NCBI GenBank assembly: GCA_026989395.1
Contig: JALSJK010000078.1
Span: forward strand, 1 to 64,000
Direction: 5' to 3'
Source of the DNA: Methylomonas sp.
GTDB taxonomy: Bacteria; Pseudomonadota; Gammaproteobacteria; Methylococcales; Methylomonadaceae
Length of the DNA stretch: 64,000 nt
Shown: in pieces, positions 46,329 to 54,248 of the stretch
Layout of the letters: each line of letters begins with the position of its first letter
Numbering within the stretch: position 1 is the first letter of the stretch
The notes under the pieces: generated by a model
What the model saw: only the letters and a program-made list of their open reading frames with translations
Database searches by the model: none
Told to the model about the DNA's origin: nothing
Position numbers and translations under genes: made by a program

Positions 46329-47210
46329 ATGATTCAACGAATACTACTGACAATTGTCATGGGATTGACTCTTTCCAATAGCCTGATGGCTAAATCAAAC
46401 CAGCCAGCTGTTGCAATCAAAGAGCCTGTTATTGGCGACACTGTTAATCGAAATCTGTTAAGGCGGCTGGATACCGACATTATTCGCTCAGAAATGGAGG
46501 CTTCCTTCAGAGCTACCCGAAAATTTCGCGTGCTAAGCCGAGACAAAGCAACATTAAAAGCAGTTCTGGATGAACAGGATTTTGCCAATTCAGACCTGGC
46601 TAAAGGCGATGCTGCAAATTCCGGCAACCTTAATAATGCCCATTATTTAATCTTGCCAACGGTACAAGATTTCAGGTTTTACCGCAAACATACTCCTCTG
46701 CCTAATTTTGACAGCAAATATAAGCGTAAGGATTGGGGCGTTCTTGCTGTCAATGCGCAAATGATTGATACCAGCACCGGTCAAATTGTGACCACCTTTT
46801 TCCTGAAAGATACCTTTGCCACAAAAAATAAAATTGTTAATAGCAACACCGGCGCACCCAGCAGTGTCTATTTTTCGAAAATGGCCAAGGGTATCGCAGC
46901 ACAATTGGCAAACCAGTTTGTTGCCCAGGTTTATCCGATGAAAGTCATTAAACGCACCCGAACCAATGAAGTGATTATCAATCGAGGCAAAGACGGCGGA
47001 CTTAAAGTCGGCGAAAAACTGAATGTGTATTTTGCCGGAGAAGCGCTGATTGACCCAGATACGGGTGAATCTTTAGGCTCCAGTGAAGAATTCATTGGCA
47101 CTGTTAAAGTCACCCGCATTTTGCCCAAAATCACTTATGCAAAAATCACCTCTGAGCAGGATTCGGAAGGTTACCCTATGCAAGCAGGCAATATCCTGAG
47201 AAAACCCTGA
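46329..47210 (+). CDS. CsgG-like exported protein
   Basis: A 293-aa protein with a cleavable signal peptide (MIQRILLTIVMGLTLSNSLMA), no lipobox, and a CsgG/TolB-N-like domain at ~25-205: RSEMEASFRATRKFRVLSRDKATLKAVLDEQDF, AHYLILPTVQDF, MIDTSTGQIVT, MAKGIAAQLANQFVAQVYPMKV. The last ~80 residues (INRGKDGGLKVGEKLNVYF....DPDTGESLG...VTRI) form a small module resembling the C-terminal domain of FlgT-like proteins. It opens a six-gene operon with a GGAGA ribosome-binding site. CsgG itself is an outer-membrane lipoprotein channel; a channel role here is not shown. Confidence 0.75.
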   Translation: MIQRILLTIVMGLTLSNSLMAKSNQPAVAIKEPVIGDTVNRNLLRRLDTDIIRSEMEASFRATRKFRVLSRDKATLKAVLDEQDFANSDLAKGDAANSGNLNNAHYLILPTVQDFRFYRKHTPLPNFDSKYKRKDWGVLAVNAQMIDTSTGQIVTTFFLKDTFATKNKIVNSNTGAPSSVYFSKMAKGIAAQLANQFVAQVYPMKVIKRTRTNEVIINRGKDGGLKVGEKLNVYFAGEALIDPDTGESLGSSEEFIGTVKVTRILPKITYAKITSEQDSEGYPMQAGNILRKP

Positions 47211-47245: not shown

Positions 47246-49153
47246 ATGAAACAACAATCACCTTTTTCAATCGCAAAAATAATAATTCTAATTCTTTTCG
47301 GTTTTCTTATCAGTGCCTGTGGTGAAAAAACTGATGAAAATGAAGGACAAAAATCCTCAGAAAACGGTACTTTAGGTTTTGCTAAAAACCAGCAAGGACA
47401 AATTAAAATCGCAGTTTTAAGTACCAGTGATTTCTTTCCTGACCGGGCTGTTCAGCAACGAATGGGGCTTCCTGAAGATCTGGCAGCTCGAATCATCGAA
47501 AATTTACAAAAAAGCAATCGTTTTAATGTTCTGGAAAGAACAGCATTAAGAAAAATCATCAATGAGCAACAGTTCGGCAAAGGCGATAAAGAATCCTTTC
47601 TTGACCGTACTTTAAATGCCGCCACCGAAAATTTGCCCGATGTCAGCGGTTATGCAGTGAAATGGACAGGCATATTGTCAGACCATAATGATATTGTTAA
47701 GGAATATCAAAATCTGGGTACCACCATGGGAGCTGATTTCCTGGTGTTTGCAGTTCTGGAAAAAGCGGATGAAAAAATCAAAAACACTAATATCCCTCAT
47801 AGTGAAACGGGAAAGCAAATAACCAAGCATGTATCTGATGCCCGGCTTCGATTAAGAGTCATTGATACAAAAACCGGAATGATCGCAGGCACAGCAAGTT
47901 TTAGAACCAAAGTTAGCGAGTCGGTATTTGCAGGCCGTGAATCCAATCGTGATGCATACTCAACTTTTGACCATGTTGGCGCTCTCGCCGCACACAAAAT
48001 TCTGGATATCGTGTCACCGCCTAAAATTGTCAGCGCCAACCCTTATGTGATAAACCGTGGCAGCAACGATGGTTACACCGCTGACAATACCTTTAAAGTT
48101 TTCAGGGAAGACAAGGAAATACAAGACCCTAGTGGTATTACTATCGGTAGGCTTAAATCTCCTGTTGGCAATATCAAGCTGGACGCCGTTCAAGATACCA
48201 TCTCGGTAGTCGATATTGTCGATGGCGACATACAAGTTGGTGATTTACTGGAAATTCCTGAGCAAACTTCAAGTGCGAGCAGCTTATCCCAACAAGCAGT
48301 AAAACCAGTTGAAAGAACATCCCAAAATGGCAAACTAACCATTGCCATAGGAAAGGTTCACTTCAATGCTAACAATAATTATATTTTTCTTTCCGTTGAT
48401 GATTACCCTCGGGTCAAAAATGACCTGATGGTTAAACTAACCAACTCCAATCGTTTTGATGTTCTTGAAAGACATGAGATTGATCAGATTCTGGATGAAA
48501 AAAACTTTACCGCGTTAATGGGTGGCGATGAAATTGATCCATATTTAAAAGAAACGATTGGGGCAGATTATTTAGTTCTAACCGCGGTTGATAAATTTGC
48601 TATCCAGTCAGAAAATAATAAGCTTGCCTATGTTGATGAAGTTCAAACTCGTCATTATGGCATCGTCGAAGCCACTTTGCGTATCGTTGACAGCCATACT
48701 GGCAAACTTCTGGCCGCTGATAAAATTCGCATCAACAAAAAACTGGAAAAATATAATAAAAATATTGCCGCCAACACATACAGCAATCTGATTGATGAAT
48801 TTACTGATTTAATGGTCAGCAAAATTGTACATCGCATTTATCCCATTAAAATCATGGCGACACTTCCTGATGGCAGTGTCTATATTAACCGTGGACTGGA
48901 TGGAGGTTTGAAAGCTGGTGATATTTTCAATGTTATGCGCCCTGGCCAGGAATTGATTGATCCAGATACAGGCATTTCATTTGGCTCAGCAGAAACAAAA
49001 GTTGCCCAGTTAAAACTAGACACCGTAGAACCTGCACGAGCAAAAGCAGCCATCATTAGTGGCAACGAAGTTCAGCGAGGGGATATCTTGCGCGAGGCTG
49101 AAACCCAAAAACAAATACCCAAACAACCCGAAGTCAATAGACCGGTTTTCTAA
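47246..49153 (+). CDS. CsgG-like lipoprotein with duplicated module
   Basis: A 635-aa lipoprotein (LILFGFLISACGEK, Cys at 25). Two copies of the module in the preceding gene follow. The first spans about 48-330 (RIIENLQKSNRFNVLERTALRKIINEQQF, GADFLVFAVL, VIDTKTGMIAG, then YVINRGSNDGYTADNTFKVFRE). The second spans about 360-620 (LTNSNRFDVLERHEIDQILDEKNF, GADYLVLTAVD, IVDSHTGKLLA, then VYINRGLDGGLKAGDIFNV.....DPDTGISFG). They are joined by a Ser/Gln-rich linker (~335-355). It lies 35 bp after the first gene. It may sit at the inner face of the outer membrane. Confidence 0.75.
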   Translation: MKQQSPFSIAKIIILILFGFLISACGEKTDENEGQKSSENGTLGFAKNQQGQIKIAVLSTSDFFPDRAVQQRMGLPEDLAARIIENLQKSNRFNVLERTALRKIINEQQFGKGDKESFLDRTLNAATENLPDVSGYAVKWTGILSDHNDIVKEYQNLGTTMGADFLVFAVLEKADEKIKNTNIPHSETGKQITKHVSDARLRLRVIDTKTGMIAGTASFRTKVSESVFAGRESNRDAYSTFDHVGALAAHKILDIVSPPKIVSANPYVINRGSNDGYTADNTFKVFREDKEIQDPSGITIGRLKSPVGNIKLDAVQDTISVVDIVDGDIQVGDLLEIPEQTSSASSLSQQAVKPVERTSQNGKLTIAIGKVHFNANNNYIFLSVDDYPRVKNDLMVKLTNSNRFDVLERHEIDQILDEKNFTALMGGDEIDPYLKETIGADYLVLTAVDKFAIQSENNKLAYVDEVQTRHYGIVEATLRIVDSHTGKLLAADKIRINKKLEKYNKNIAANTYSNLIDEFTDLMVSKIVHRIYPIKIMATLPDGSVYINRGLDGGLKAGDIFNVMRPGQELIDPDTGISFGSAETKVAQLKLDTVEPARAKAAIISGNEVQRGDILREAETQKQIPKQPEVNRPVF

Positions 49154-49183: not shown

Positions 49184-50869
49184 ATGAATAAAAACTACAA
49201 AAAAAAATTTCGCCCAATGAGCCTGGTTCATGGCTTAACAAAGTTGAGAACCAGGTCTTTATTTCCCTTTAAAGGCTGCAAAAGGCAGCCCCCCCTGTGT
49301 ACAGCCAGCACTGTTTTTATGGCTTTCTGCCTCCTAGCTCTTCAACCTCAACAAGTCTATGCCATTGATTTTCTGGATGCTTTAAACAGTAGTCTTAAGC
49401 AGATCAATAAAAGCATCCCTAAGCCACCTGGTTCGGTGCCTCATCACAAGCCAGTAAAACCTGTTCCTGGCCATTATCCAGCCAACACTCATCAAAAAAG
49501 AAAAATTCAATATCAAATTACCTATGAAGGTTATTCCAAAGATTTTGTCCCCATCAGAAATTTAATTGCCTCAGGTGATTTCAAACGCGCATACGAACTG
49601 GAGCAACAAAACATCAAGGATAATGGTATTGATTTTTTAAATTCTGTTGAAGCCGGCCTGTTATCAATTGATACCCACCACACCCTTGATGGCATTAAGG
49701 ATTTTGCCAGCGCTGAAACTTATCTCAAACAAATGATGGGGCGATCTATTGCCGAAGAGTCTTTTACTCAATACGGCCTGGAGGCCATGAGCCTGATATC
49801 CGGAAAAGGGGACTTGGTTGAATATATCGGGGAACCCTATGAAAGAATCCTGATGCTTAATTATAAATCCATTGCCTATTTATTGAATGGCGAAAGGAAA
49901 GCCTATAATGTCACCCGCCGGGCAATCGACTGGCAAAATATCGAAAGAAAAGAATTTGAGAAAAATATTGGGGAAATAAAAAAGCAGGTTAAAGAAAACG
50001 AGAAAAAACCAGAGACAGAAAAAGCCGCATCTTATGCTCCAGAAGCTTTCGACCTGATCTTCAATCAATATAAACGTTACCAATCCAAAGCCAACAGCGT
50101 CCCCAGTGCGTATATTAATCCGTTCGGATTTTATATGGCTGGAATTATTCAGGAATTTGACAGCTATGAAGATGCATCGCTGCGAGGTAATGCCAGAATT
50201 TCTTATAAAAAGGCTCTGGAATTAAACCCTAGAAGCAAGGTTATCAAGCGGGCCATCAGAGCTACCAAAAGGAGACCTCCGCGACATAAACGCCTGGTGC
50301 ACGTTATTGTTGCCGATGGGTTTGCTCCTGAGAAAAAGACGCTTTCCTTTACACTAAATATAGGCGGGGGGTTGGTTCCCATCAAATCACCTCTTTTTGA
50401 GCCGGTCAAATCTTCTGTAAAAACCATCAAAATAAAATCAGGTAGAAAAGTATTGGCAACACTCTCCCCCATTGCTGATATTGAAGCGATCATTTTAAGA
50501 AACCAGCTGGACAAACTGCCGATTGAACAAGCTCGAGTCATGACGTCTATCGCCCGGAATATTGGCGAAAATTTATTATGGAATCAGCTTGGTGGCTTTG
50601 GCGTCATTGGCAAACTTTTTCGTGAAAGTTTTGCCAACCCGGATATGCGCGCCTGGATGACTTTACCCAAAAAAATATCGGCAGCTCGTTTCTATGTTTC
50701 AAAAAGACTAAAAAAAATCACCATTATCAGCTACGATAGGCGGGGCCGGAGATTGGCAAAAAAACATGTATTTTTAAACAGAAAATCGCATAATTTTATT
50801 TATGCCAGAAGCATAGAAAAAGCAATTTACGCACAAGTTAATAAAAACCTATGGATCAAAAAACCATGA
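49184..50869 (+). CDS. COG3014-like exported protein with TPR-like helices
   Basis: A 561-aa protein with a late N-terminal hydrophobic segment (TVFMAFCLLALQPQQVYA, ~43-60, after a basic stretch) that acts as a long signal or anchor. The middle (~110-360) is helical with a TPR-like pattern and the EPYERILMLNYKSIAYLLNGE motif of the uncharacterised COG3014 family; ARISYKKALELNPRSKV resembles a TPR. The C-terminal third (~370-560) is beta-rich (HVIVADGFAPEKKTLSFTL). In other gammaproteobacteria COG3014 genes sit with ycfL- and lpoB-like genes, as here. The function is unknown. Confidence 0.7.
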   Translation: MNKNYKKKFRPMSLVHGLTKLRTRSLFPFKGCKRQPPLCTASTVFMAFCLLALQPQQVYAIDFLDALNSSLKQINKSIPKPPGSVPHHKPVKPVPGHYPANTHQKRKIQYQITYEGYSKDFVPIRNLIASGDFKRAYELEQQNIKDNGIDFLNSVEAGLLSIDTHHTLDGIKDFASAETYLKQMMGRSIAEESFTQYGLEAMSLISGKGDLVEYIGEPYERILMLNYKSIAYLLNGERKAYNVTRRAIDWQNIERKEFEKNIGEIKKQVKENEKKPETEKAASYAPEAFDLIFNQYKRYQSKANSVPSAYINPFGFYMAGIIQEFDSYEDASLRGNARISYKKALELNPRSKVIKRAIRATKRRPPRHKRLVHVIVADGFAPEKKTLSFTLNIGGGLVPIKSPLFEPVKSSVKTIKIKSGRKVLATLSPIADIEAIILRNQLDKLPIEQARVMTSIARNIGENLLWNQLGGFGVIGKLFRESFANPDMRAWMTLPKKISAARFYVSKRLKKITIISYDRRGRRLAKKHVFLNRKSHNFIYARSIEKAIYAQVNKNLWIKKP

Positions 50870-51393
50870 TAAAAAAAATAATCACTCTCATCCTAGTTAC
50901 CTTTTTGACCAGTGGCTGCACTGCAAAAAAAGGTGCCAATATCCAATACCTGGCACAAAAAACCATTGACGACACGCATCCCCGTGCCACATTAATTCTG
51001 GGTTCAAGTGAACTGGTCAATAGAGTTTTAATTACCAATGTCAGGGTCGCTCAAGTTGGCTTGCTTCCCAAAGCCGGTATAGATGTTCAAAACTTGACTG
51101 ATAATCGCTACAACCTGGAATACAAGATTGTCTGGCGAGATAAACAGGGATTTCCGATTAATGTTGGCAATGTCTGGCACCGATTTGTTCTAAGCCCTAG
51201 AAAAATCAAAAGTTTCCAGAGTATGGGAAAGACAGAAGAGGCCTATTCCATCCAGTTTACTGTACGTTTCCCTGATGATTTATTTATTGAATCAGATAGA
51301 CGTGAGCAAGAATCAAAACAAATGGTCCCTTGCCCTCCTCCACTACCGCCGATTTGTCCTAAATCCATGAGAGATCGCGTACAATTCAAATAA
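50866..51393 (+). CDS. YcfL-like (DUF1425) lipoprotein
   Basis: A 175-aa lipoprotein (MIKKIITLILVTFLTSGCTAKKG). The mature part has the DUF1425 pattern: LINTNVRVAQVGLLPKAGIDVQNLT-like segment and LEYKIVWRDKQGFPI with W..F.L. YcfL is the standard partner encoded immediately before lpoB in E. coli. The ATG overlaps the stop of the COG3014-like gene (ATGA); an in-frame ATG 15 bp earlier lies inside that gene. The C-terminus (CPPPLPPICPKS) is Pro/Cys-rich and unusual. Confidence 0.78.
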   Translation: MIKKIITLILVTFLTSGCTAKKGANIQYLAQKTIDDTHPRATLILGSSELVNRVLITNVRVAQVGLLPKAGIDVQNLTDNRYNLEYKIVWRDKQGFPINVGNVWHRFVLSPRKIKSFQSMGKTEEAYSIQFTVRFPDDLFIESDRREQESKQMVPCPPPLPPICPKSMRDRVQFK

Positions 51394-51422: not shown

Positions 51423-51947
51423 ATGATGAAAAAGATAATAGTAATAAGTACCTGTGCATTGTTAGCAACTGGCTGCGCCCAAAACCGACTCGGTGGCCAA
51501 TCCAGAGTTTCCATTTTAGACGATTCCAGTCGGGCTCACCTGGAAGCTGAATTAACAATGGCTGACTACACCGCCTTCGCAGAAAAAGTCACCAACAAGA
51601 TGTTGGCATCAAGATTGGTTCAAAGCTGGGGACGAAAACGCCCCCGTCTGGTTGTCGGAAGAATGCTGAATAATACCGATAATGAAAGTATACGGATTCA
51701 GGATATTTATGATCGGATTACTGAAACCATTTTGGGTTCTGGCTTGGTGCGGTTATTGGACAAATCTGCAACGTCTTTTGATTATGTCGTCAATACAGAA
51801 TTATCCTCCACGCGCCAATATGGTACTGGCGGCGAAGAATTAGCTTATTTTAAGCTGGAATTCAAGATGTTCAAGATTGATGGGGAAATGGTGGGCCAAT
51901 GGTCAGATGTATTACCATTAGGTAAAGCCAGAAGAAATTTCCTTTAA
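51423..51947 (+). CDS. lpoB: LpoB-like penicillin-binding-protein activator lipoprotein
   Basis: A 174-aa lipoprotein (IVISTCALLATGCAQNR). The domain runs from about residue 40: LTMADYTAFAEKVTNKMLASRLV, RPRLVVGRMLNNTDNESIRIQDIYDRITETILGSGLVRLLDKS, DYVVNTELSSTRQYGTGG, YFKLEFKMFKIDGEMVGQWSD. This agrees with LpoB, the outer-membrane activator of PBP1b. The LpoB fold is related to the TolB-N/CsgG fold, so it is a cousin of the first two products. The usual Pro/Gln-rich spacer after the lipobox is very short, which would limit how far it reaches into the peptidoglycan. Confidence 0.8.
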   Translation: MMKKIIVISTCALLATGCAQNRLGGQSRVSILDDSSRAHLEAELTMADYTAFAEKVTNKMLASRLVQSWGRKRPRLVVGRMLNNTDNESIRIQDIYDRITETILGSGLVRLLDKSATSFDYVVNTELSSTRQYGTGGEELAYFKLEFKMFKIDGEMVGQWSDVLPLGKARRNFL

Positions 51948-51978: not shown

Positions 51979-53094
51979 ATGAAAATTGCTTGGCTGACCA
52001 TAATTTTTTTTCTGGGGACGATTCCATGCTACGCTGCCCCAAAGACTGCATTGGTTATAGGCAATTCCAATTATCAATCATCACCATTAACCAACCCGGT
52101 TAACGATGCTACTGATATAGCTGAAAAGCTCAGATATCTGGGCTTTGAGGTTTTTGACAAATTCGATTTAAATCGAAAACAAATGCGAAATGCCATTCGC
52201 GAATTCGGTCAAACTTTAAAACAAAAAGGCGGAGCAGGTATTTTCTTCTATGCTGGTCATGGCATCCAAGTTAAAGGGGAAAATTATTTAATTCCTGTCG
52301 GCGCTGATATCCAATCCGAATTTGAAGTTCCTGATGAATCTGTTCAGGCAAATTTATTATTACGCGCTCTGGAAGATGCCGGCAATCCTCTAAATATCGT
52401 GGTATTAGACGCTTGCCGGGATAACCCTTTTGCACGCAGCTTTCGTTCCTCAGCAAAAGGACTGGCGAGAATGGAAGGTGGAGTGGGAACTCTTATTGCC
52501 TACTCAACTGGGCCGGGAAATGTGGCAATGGATGGTGAAGGACGCAACAGCCCCTATACTAAATATTTACTCAAATATATGACCCAAACCGGACTGTCCA
52601 TTGAACAGGTTTTCAAACGCGTCAGAGTGGGCGTGGAAAAAGATTCAGGAGGACGACAAATTCCTTGGGAATCATCATCGTTACGAAACGATTTCTATTT
52701 TGTTCCAGAACCTGTTGAATTGACCAAGCATTCACCACAAAACCAGATTAATAAAGACATTGAAAAGTCAAAAAAACACACCATAAAGGTAACTGCTTCT
52801 GAAACAAGAGCCAAAAACAGCTCATTGGTGACAAATGCGCTGATGACCAATTATGTCGACACCAATTCACAGACAACTTCAGGTTATAAATTAACTATCT
52901 ATACCAACCCTGGCTCTGCGCAAATACGCATACTCAATCTGGACAAAAATTATCATTCCGGTATCACACTTGAACCCGGGGATTACAATTTGGAGATCAG
53001 TAAAGAAGGATATTTAAGTAAAAAACAATGGGTAACAATTGACCAGGATAATGTGGAAATGCAAATAACCCTGGTGCCACTAGACTATGAATAA
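51979..53094 (+). CDS. Exported caspase-fold (C14) peptidase with PEGA domain
   Basis: A 371-aa protein with a signal peptide (MKIAWLTIIFFLGTIPCYA). The caspase-type domain (~22-260) has the start KTALVIGNSNYQSSPLTNPVNDA, the catalytic His94 in FFYAGHG and Cys146 in VVLDACRDNPF, and YSTGPGNVAMDGEGRNSPYT, as in metacaspase-like C14 proteins. A polar linker (~265-295) leads to a PEGA-type beta domain (LTIYTNPGSAQIRILNLDK...LEPGDYNLEISKEGYLSKKQWVTI). Substrates and timing of activation are unknown. It is the last gene of the operon, 31 bp after lpoB, and converges on a TPR lipoprotein gene. Confidence 0.85.
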   Translation: MKIAWLTIIFFLGTIPCYAAPKTALVIGNSNYQSSPLTNPVNDATDIAEKLRYLGFEVFDKFDLNRKQMRNAIREFGQTLKQKGGAGIFFYAGHGIQVKGENYLIPVGADIQSEFEVPDESVQANLLLRALEDAGNPLNIVVLDACRDNPFARSFRSSAKGLARMEGGVGTLIAYSTGPGNVAMDGEGRNSPYTKYLLKYMTQTGLSIEQVFKRVRVGVEKDSGGRQIPWESSSLRNDFYFVPEPVELTKHSPQNQINKDIEKSKKHTIKVTASETRAKNSSLVTNALMTNYVDTNSQTTSGYKLTIYTNPGSAQIRILNLDKNYHSGITLEPGDYNLEISKEGYLSKKQWVTIDQDNVEMQITLVPLDYE

Positions 53095-53100
53095 AACCTG

Positions 53101-53667
53101 TTAATAATTATCCGCTTTTGTTTTTGCTTCTTTTGCGCCAAACTGATTACCCTGCATCCGTCTTGCTTCTGCAATTAACAACCACGCCCGACGTTTTATC
53201 AAAGTGTTATTTCCTGCAAGAAGCGCTGACTTTTTAGCCAAAGCCTCTGCAAGCCTGGCTTTTCCTTGCCTTAAACGAACTGCTGCCAATTTATAAACCA
53301 ACTTGGCATTTCTTGGTTCGATTCTTAAAGCCCTTTCAATCGTAGAAACTGCTTGTTCATATTCTCCGGCTTTGTAACTTTGGTCGGCCTTTGTCAGCAA
53401 TGCGACAACAGCGGGTGTCAAAGGTTTATTGTGAGTAAAATAATCAGAATGCCTTTTTTGAGGGGAAGTTTGGTAAGGATAAGTTTTAACAGTTTGTTGT
53501 TTTCCAGAAAAAACCTCTTTATTTTCACTGGGGTAGTGCCTTTTAGTTTCTGTATTCTGCCTTGAACTGTAAATAGAGGATTTCCTCTGTGCTCTCGATG
53601 TATGATAAGTACAGGCCGCCAATAAAAAAACCAGTATTGTCAGTAAAATAAATTTATTTTTTTTCAT
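53101..53667 (-). CDS. TPR lipoprotein
   Basis: A 188-aa lipoprotein (FILLTILVFLLAACTYH). After a Ser/Lys/Gln-rich low-complexity stretch (~20-75), TPR-like repeats follow (ALLTKADQSYKAGEYEQAVSTIERALRIEPRNAKLVYKLAAVRLRQGKARLAEALAKKS shows A..A and 34-residue spacing), then a basic C-terminus. It probably scaffolds envelope proteins. The start overlaps the stop of the upstream gene (TAATG), so the two are coupled. It has only 6 bp to the caspase stop. Confidence 0.75.
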   Translation of the reverse strand: MKKNKFILLTILVFLLAACTYHTSRAQRKSSIYSSRQNTETKRHYPSENKEVFSGKQQTVKTYPYQTSPQKRHSDYFTHNKPLTPAVVALLTKADQSYKAGEYEQAVSTIERALRIEPRNAKLVYKLAAVRLRQGKARLAEALAKKSALLAGNNTLIKRRAWLLIAEARRMQGNQFGAKEAKTKADNY

Positions 53668-54209
53668 TAAAAAAGTTCAATATCCTCATCTTCTTCGGTT
53701 TTTTGTTCTTCTGAAGCAGCAATCTTAAGGGCTTCTTCAACGCTTTTTCCACTTACAATGGCATCAAACAATGCTTTTTCGGATTCCATGGTATAGGTAG
53801 ATCGAATCTGTTCCTGTAGTTTCGCCCACTCCCTTGGATTATACAGGCGTTCCGGACTTTCGACGATATCTGATAACGCTTTCAAGCTGAATGTAACATG
53901 CTGCAACCGCTGCTGTAATCGATCATAGAACTGAAAAGCAACAATTGAAGTTCTGATTTTATCTGAGGTAGCAGCACAATGCGCTAATGCTAAATCTTTT
54001 GCATCACTTGGCTCTAATAAATCCAGTTGTTCATTGATTCCCGCCAAATGTTCCACCATCGCAGTAAATGACTCAGTCAAAACAGTTACTGAATCGTCCC
54101 CTTCAACCATACTTCCTTCAACATGCGTGGCAGAAAGAGCTAGTAATTTGACTGTTTCTCTAACCTGGCTCCAGTCTAGATCAGGTTGGTGTGCGTAGGA
54201 TTGTGTCAT
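53667..54209 (-). CDS. Conserved helical cytosolic protein
   Basis: A 180-aa soluble all-helical protein. AFQFYDRLQQRLQHVTFSLKAL and LYNPREWAKLQEQIRSTYTMESEKALFDAI are conserved-looking segments, resembling proteins of many gammaproteobacteria often annotated as hypothetical and sometimes located next to GGDEF proteins; F-Q-x-x-D-R-L-x-Q recalls CheZ-type helices. The C-terminus is very acidic (KTEEDEDIELF). The ATG at 54209 follows GGGG at normal spacing; a TTG at 54224 would add five residues. A signalling role with the nearby cyclase is only a guess. Confidence 0.7.
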   Translation of the reverse strand: MTQSYAHQPDLDWSQVRETVKLLALSATHVEGSMVEGDDSVTVLTESFTAMVEHLAGINEQLDLLEPSDAKDLALAHCAATSDKIRTSIVAFQFYDRLQQRLQHVTFSLKALSDIVESPERLYNPREWAKLQEQIRSTYTMESEKALFDAIVSGKSVEEALKIAASEEQKTEEDEDIELF

Positions 54210-54248
54210 AAATAATTTCCCCAAAATAAGTCAGCAAAATGCATCTTC

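Follow-up and report, generated by a model that had tools for sequence, protein, structure and literature searches.

An operon of envelope-protein genes in the methane-oxidising bacterium Methylomonas sp. ends in a gene that very probably, judging from sequence and model comparisons, encodes an active, exported, Arg/Lys-directed peptidase of the paracaspase type. The explanation preferred here, with about an even chance of being right, is that of a regulatory or processing periplasmic paracaspase, PEGA-docked and cutting after Arg or Lys, which would act on or in the operon's envelope complex. Positions are those of the window, the whole 64,000-nucleotide stretch that was analysed (Table 1).

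Table 1. Genes of the operon and parts of the caspase protein, with window positions.
Feature	Position	Strand	Basis
CsgG1: CsgG-type protein, FlgT_C/TsaP-like C-terminus, first operon gene	46329..47210	+	PF03783 E 1.5e-5
CsgG2: lipoprotein, two CsgG-type stretches and FlgT_C domain	47246..49153	+	PF03783 E 4.7e-20, PF16538 E 2e-10, lipobox ISAC
P561: 561-aa protein, TPR-like stretch	49184..50869	+	without Pfam family
YcfL-like lipoprotein (DUF1425)	50851..51393	+	PF07233 E 1e-12, lipobox TSGC
LpoB-like lipoprotein, ends 31 bases before caspase gene	51423..51947	+	PF13036 E 1.4e-6, lipobox ATGC
Caspase ORF	51979-53094	+	371 aa, ATG start
Signal peptide, residues 1-19	51979..52035	+	hydrophobic core, A-x-A-type site, without lipobox
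Caspase/paracaspase catalytic domain, residues 20-245	52036..52713	+	PF00656, MALT1 matches, model, invariance, dN/dS
Fast-changing linker, residues 246-302	52714..52884	+	56% identity to L104, dN/dS 0.47
PEGA-like domain, residues 304-367	52888..53079	+	PF08308 E 2.4e-4

The caspase protein

The initial annotation gave the coordinates, frame and catalytic residues (His94 in YAGHG, Cys146 in DACRDNP) exactly, and the signal peptide, intact dyad and PEGA tail that it proposed are all borne out, the last as PEGA-like. The signal peptide was called by simple rules (hydrophobic core and site motif) rather than by a trained predictor: residues 3-12 form the core, with a mean Kyte-Doolittle value of 2.69, and cleavage is predicted after C-Y-A, whose last residue, 19, immediately precedes the caspase domain. 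A rule-based scan found no lipobox at the N-terminus. By alignment and scan, the operon orthologues also carry a signal and an A-x-A-type site before the domain, including L123 and L126, for which the scan listed no site and the alignment shows NAFA and HAFA, respectively.

The caspase fold, of the peptidase C14/paracaspase type with a His/Cys dyad, is seen both in sequence and in a predicted structure. PF00656 (Pfam C14) covers residues 22-240 (E 5.1e-43), and a sequence search of the PDB places MALT1 first (phmmer E 2.1e-17; profile E 5e-24). A model of residues 19-245 built from 15 sequences has a pLDDT of 88.7 and a pTM of 0.90 (a full-length model from 10 rows, with a pLDDT of 53.8, was set aside); with it, Foldseek finds MALT1 at E 5.4e-17, and VIA-align gives human MALT1 as the best match (Z 27.4, 2.5 A over 211 residues, 28% identity). 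All 10 operon orthologues and all 15 aligned catalytic domains keep His94 and Cys146; the acidic residues Asp43, Asp144 and Asp185 are likewise invariant in the 15. In comparison with L104, the nearest relative of the window, the catalytic part has a dN/dS of 0.014, indicating strong purifying selection and speaking for a working enzyme; the value is 0.015 for the neighbouring LpoB-like protein and 0.10 for residues 303-371, the PEGA part, the linker being far more variable (Table 1). On its own, the PF08308 match to the tail is marginal (21.4 bits against a curated cut-off of 20.8); it is stronger in orthologues (E 3.1e-7 in L109, 3.2e-12 in L127).

If His415 and Cys464 are taken to be the catalytic residues of MALT1, on which assumption the position counting rests, the printed alignments pair Asp43 and Asp144 with MALT1 Asp365 and Asp462; Asp185 is a candidate counterpart of Glu500, by position in the same loop only. 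In PMC4357240, MALT1 is described as binding a P1 Arg via Asp365, Asp462 and Glu500. Since the acidic residues appear to match this pocket and are invariant, a basic (Arg/Lys) P1 preference is predicted, and the Arg/Lys substrates suggested in the initial annotation are plausible. MALT1 (C14B) is the closest known likeness by sequence and by fold; the protein described here differs in being bacterial and exported, in lacking death or Ig domains, and in its PEGA tail.

The presentation of export as a rarity was overstated. Of the 60 different caspase ORFs collected, which lean towards relatives of the query, 35 have a signal-like hydrophobic stretch just before the domain; many of the tblastn relatives in 271 plasmid records align from residue 1, and a 2012 survey of 671 sequences noted, in the portion available, N-terminal helices as possible signal peptides, and cell-surface operons (Asplund-Samuelsson 2012, PMC3501461). 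Signal peptides being common in the family, and suspected in 2012, export alone is therefore not new. The bacterial orthocaspases and metacaspases described in that portion of the survey share the C14 assignment, the dyad and an N-terminal hydrophobic segment with the present protein, and caspase-FGE fusions were already known from 33 sequences; PEGA, curli and CsgG do not figure in its main text as available, nor is pairing with an LpoB-type gene described there. What is less ordinary is the setting in an envelope lipoprotein operon. Searches of an open-access library, judged by listings, turned up no paper that connects caspase homologues to LpoB, to YcfL, to CsgG or to the operon as a whole. 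Of the four plasmid neighbourhoods inspected (from 271 records), two have OmpA-family genes next to the caspase, and none has a gene named CsgG or LpoB; a scan of viral contigs gave four relatives, two of them weak and none with operon genes nearby.

The operon and its caspase-bearing loci

All operon genes lie on the same strand, separated by gaps of 29-35 bases or, in one case, overlapping by 19 bases, with the caspase gene last; because of this spacing, co-expression in one operon is likely. The lipoprotein neighbours pointed out in the initial annotation belong to it, a lipobox being present in CsgG2 and in the YcfL-like and LpoB-like proteins; as suggested there, they may serve the enzyme as scaffold or substrate. 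Profile matches of CsgG1 include 6ve2, a LysM domain protein (E 2.3e-8), and TsaP 3jc8 (E 7.9e-6), its C-terminal part resembling FlgT_C and TsaP-type structures. PDB searches gave nothing credible for CsgG2, no match for the LpoB-like alignment, and for P561 nothing beyond a weak hit on a TPR design (E 1e-4). In having CsgG-type and FlgT_C domains, the operon resembles the FlgT/TsaP/CsgG outer-membrane assemblies; unlike these, it is without flagellar or pilus genes.

Lipoproteins of the E. coli LpoB and YcfL families adjoin in this operon, DUF1425 being the YcfL family. The LpoB-like protein exceeds the Pfam cut-off for PF13036 but reaches only 36.2 bits against the cut-off of 110.55 for the NCBI LpoB equivalog TIGR02722, far below it and hence "LpoB-like" rather than LpoB. 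In E. coli, the target of LpoB is the UB2H domain of PBP1b; the genome encodes one PBP1b-type UB2H domain. The stretch at window 53101-54224 holds a gene for a TPR lipoprotein, convergent to the caspase gene, with another behind it in the same orientation for a 185-aa protein without a Pfam match; both are kept beside the caspase in genomes G001 and G002.

With P561 as the anchor, a search of 84,980 species of the GTDB collection gave 30 operon loci: 10 have a caspase, 14 have both possible slots visible and empty, and 6 were not judgeable, being at contig ends or unclear (L110, L112, L118, L122, L130, L133; in L110, the apparent CsgG1 match is CsgG2 at the contig edge). Since 14 or more of the 30 loci have the operon but no caspase, the enzyme is an accessory of it. 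Close relatives L107 and L108 have the operon without the protease, the LpoB-like protein of L107 being still 81% identical.

The caspase occurs in more than one arrangement. That of the window, a caspase with PEGA tail after LpoB, is found in 4 of the 30 loci (L104, L105, L106, L109), all titled methanotroph bins; the contigs of L104 and L105 are those of G001 and G002, in which the gene order is that of the window. (In L105, a longer reading frame masks the LpoB gene in the ORF table; tblastn finds the gene there, as L008 of the same genome.) In six others (L119, L123, L125, L126, L127, L131), a longer caspase-PEGA-FGE gene precedes CsgG1, its domains having been checked in L127 and the loci aligned. 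In a more distant operon, that of G041, the gene right after LpoB encodes a dyad-intact caspase fused with a CsgG-like protein, and the sister genomes G015 and G063 have the same CsgG-like protein without a caspase; its CsgG likeness rests on own-built profiles (E about 5e-5 to 1e-4), Pfam making no call.

Several of these neighbourhoods have further peculiarities. In G041 (L135:3406-7519), the fusion gene is followed by genes for an OmpA-family protein and for a DUF4384-bearing Ser/Thr kinase, a set absent beside LpoB in the two sisters. In a deltaproteobacterial bin, a VWA plus CHAP protein follows the operon in place of the caspase (L121:8919-10937), and a Methylomonas bin has a tandem pair of LpoB-like genes (L110:4053-5221). 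Two loci whose titles name Opitutaceae and Thalassolituus (L112 and L114) cluster with Cycloclasticus loci in the P561 tree or are identical to them, so that bin labels or contigs may be wrong.

Origins of the association

In a caspase tree of 58 rows (domains under 190 aa, identical domains and the truncated L091 having been dropped), the window type and the FGE type each form a clade (100/99 and 100/100, respectively), with the G041 fusion far from both. At least two, and probably three, independent origins of the caspase at the operon may be read from these placements: two are well supported because the fusion caspase belongs to another branch, and a third is likely, given the differences in position, in architecture and in nearest relatives. 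A constraint joining the window and FGE types in one clade is not rejected (p 0.098), so the number may be two rather than three. A P561 tree was built from 50 rows, after removal of loci duplicated within a genome and of P561 proteins under 350 aa, with seven truncated loci unscored. On it, three changes of caspase state are required when unknown loci are not counted; the root being arbitrary, gains and losses are not separable by change count alone.

The tie between caspases and LpoB/CsgG genes is weak as a general tendency and strong for this operon within its clades. A position test drew on 75 caspase-bearing genomes of the class (369 searched), with 138 caspase places and 60 LpoB/CsgG clusters: four caspases lay within 5 kb of a cluster against 0.42 expected, or three against 0.39 without the window genome, few events in either case. 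One of those three pairs, in G288, is near yet not in an operon (the caspase is 3.7 kb from LpoB, with intervening genes, two on the strand opposite LpoB) and was not counted as one; another, in G324, is divergent. A general rule that caspases adjoin LpoB/CsgG genes was accordingly dropped, the excess across the class being only small, and the claim is restricted to this operon. The closest relative outside the window clade, in G318, does not adjoin an LpoB- or CsgG-like gene. The window genome's own paralogue in this subfamily (C67) is surrounded by genes that the analysis did not connect with an envelope complex.

Caspases of the paralogous subfamily also stand next to a lipoprotein of about 410 aa, of SH3-FlgO/CsgG type, at three loci (L096, L098, L102); this was not used as proof because the caspases are not one group and two of the pairs are convergent. 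In the window genome, a protein of this SH3-FlgO/CsgG type (C23; see also L103:4285-5535) has no caspase beside it. In G002, another caspase gene is directly followed by one (L098:2005-4737) whose 910-aa product has Sel1 repeats and, at its C-terminus, a caspase domain.

Possible roles of the enzyme

That the same operon appears to have gained a caspase more than once suggests a job in the cell envelope and lends support to a functional link. Under the preferred explanation, the protein would be a Sec-exported cysteine peptidase (clan CD, C14, MALT1-like), made with and probably working on or inside a periplasmic or outer-membrane complex of CsgG/FlgT-like proteins, the TPR-like protein, and the YcfL-like and LpoB-like lipoproteins. 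We infer the periplasmic location, the proteolytic activity and the P1 Arg or Lys; substrate, switch and PEGA role are guesses, namely that the tail might dock the enzyme to the envelope, and that a cut after Arg or Lys, in a partner or in some client in the envelope, might switch or mature the complex.

Other readings give the operon a lesser or a different part. Bacterial caspase homologues are mostly treated as enzymes of cell death (PMC3501461), and homologues were met in many unrelated settings; a stand-alone protease of cell death or autolysis might then sit in the operon by chance or for co-expression only. This sits badly with an operon that gained a caspase repeatedly, in three arrangements of which one is a fusion, and the reading is considered unlikely. 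Another possibility is a non-regulatory maturase, trimming an operon protein or an exported surface client once, at assembly: the partners' CsgG/FlgT/TsaP-type domains are typical of outer-membrane assemblies, and the gene spacing makes co-expression likely, but L107 and L108 keep the operon without the protease, with little change in the LpoB-like protein of L107, and a cleavage site was not seen. A maturase thus seems rather unlikely.

A further reading is that of a protease triggered by phage or other envelope injury to kill or seal the cell. Caspases belong to several defence systems, and the PADLOC caspase model aligns with a portion of the domain, over its own positions 5-130 of 453 (E 1.8e-9). 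This match is partial, with no full match to a known anti-phage caspase system with its partner genes; the two partners scanned, the LpoB-like and 561-aa proteins, match no defence model, and the caspase and operon trees each unite the window type in a single clade, unlike a mobile defence island. Envelope defence is accordingly judged very unlikely. Pseudo-variants of bacterial caspases exist, according to the abstract of PMC6426788, so that a pseudo-enzyme serving as scaffold might be imagined; the invariant dyad and the low dN/dS of the catalytic part make this hardly credible.

The preferred explanation, a processing or regulatory enzyme of the envelope complex, can be widened to a family of envelope switches, in which exported paracaspases would repeatedly have joined a CsgG/FlgT-YcfL-LpoB complex that senses envelope or peptidoglycan state, the caspase making the response irreversible by cleavage, for example of an LpoB-like activator of peptidoglycan synthesis; this is a distinctly doubtful extension. 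The operon offers named partners, caspase-free close relatives as a control, and an obvious residue to mutate. Should the link hold, the caspase-fold proteases of these bacteria would be outer-envelope regulators rather than death enzymes.
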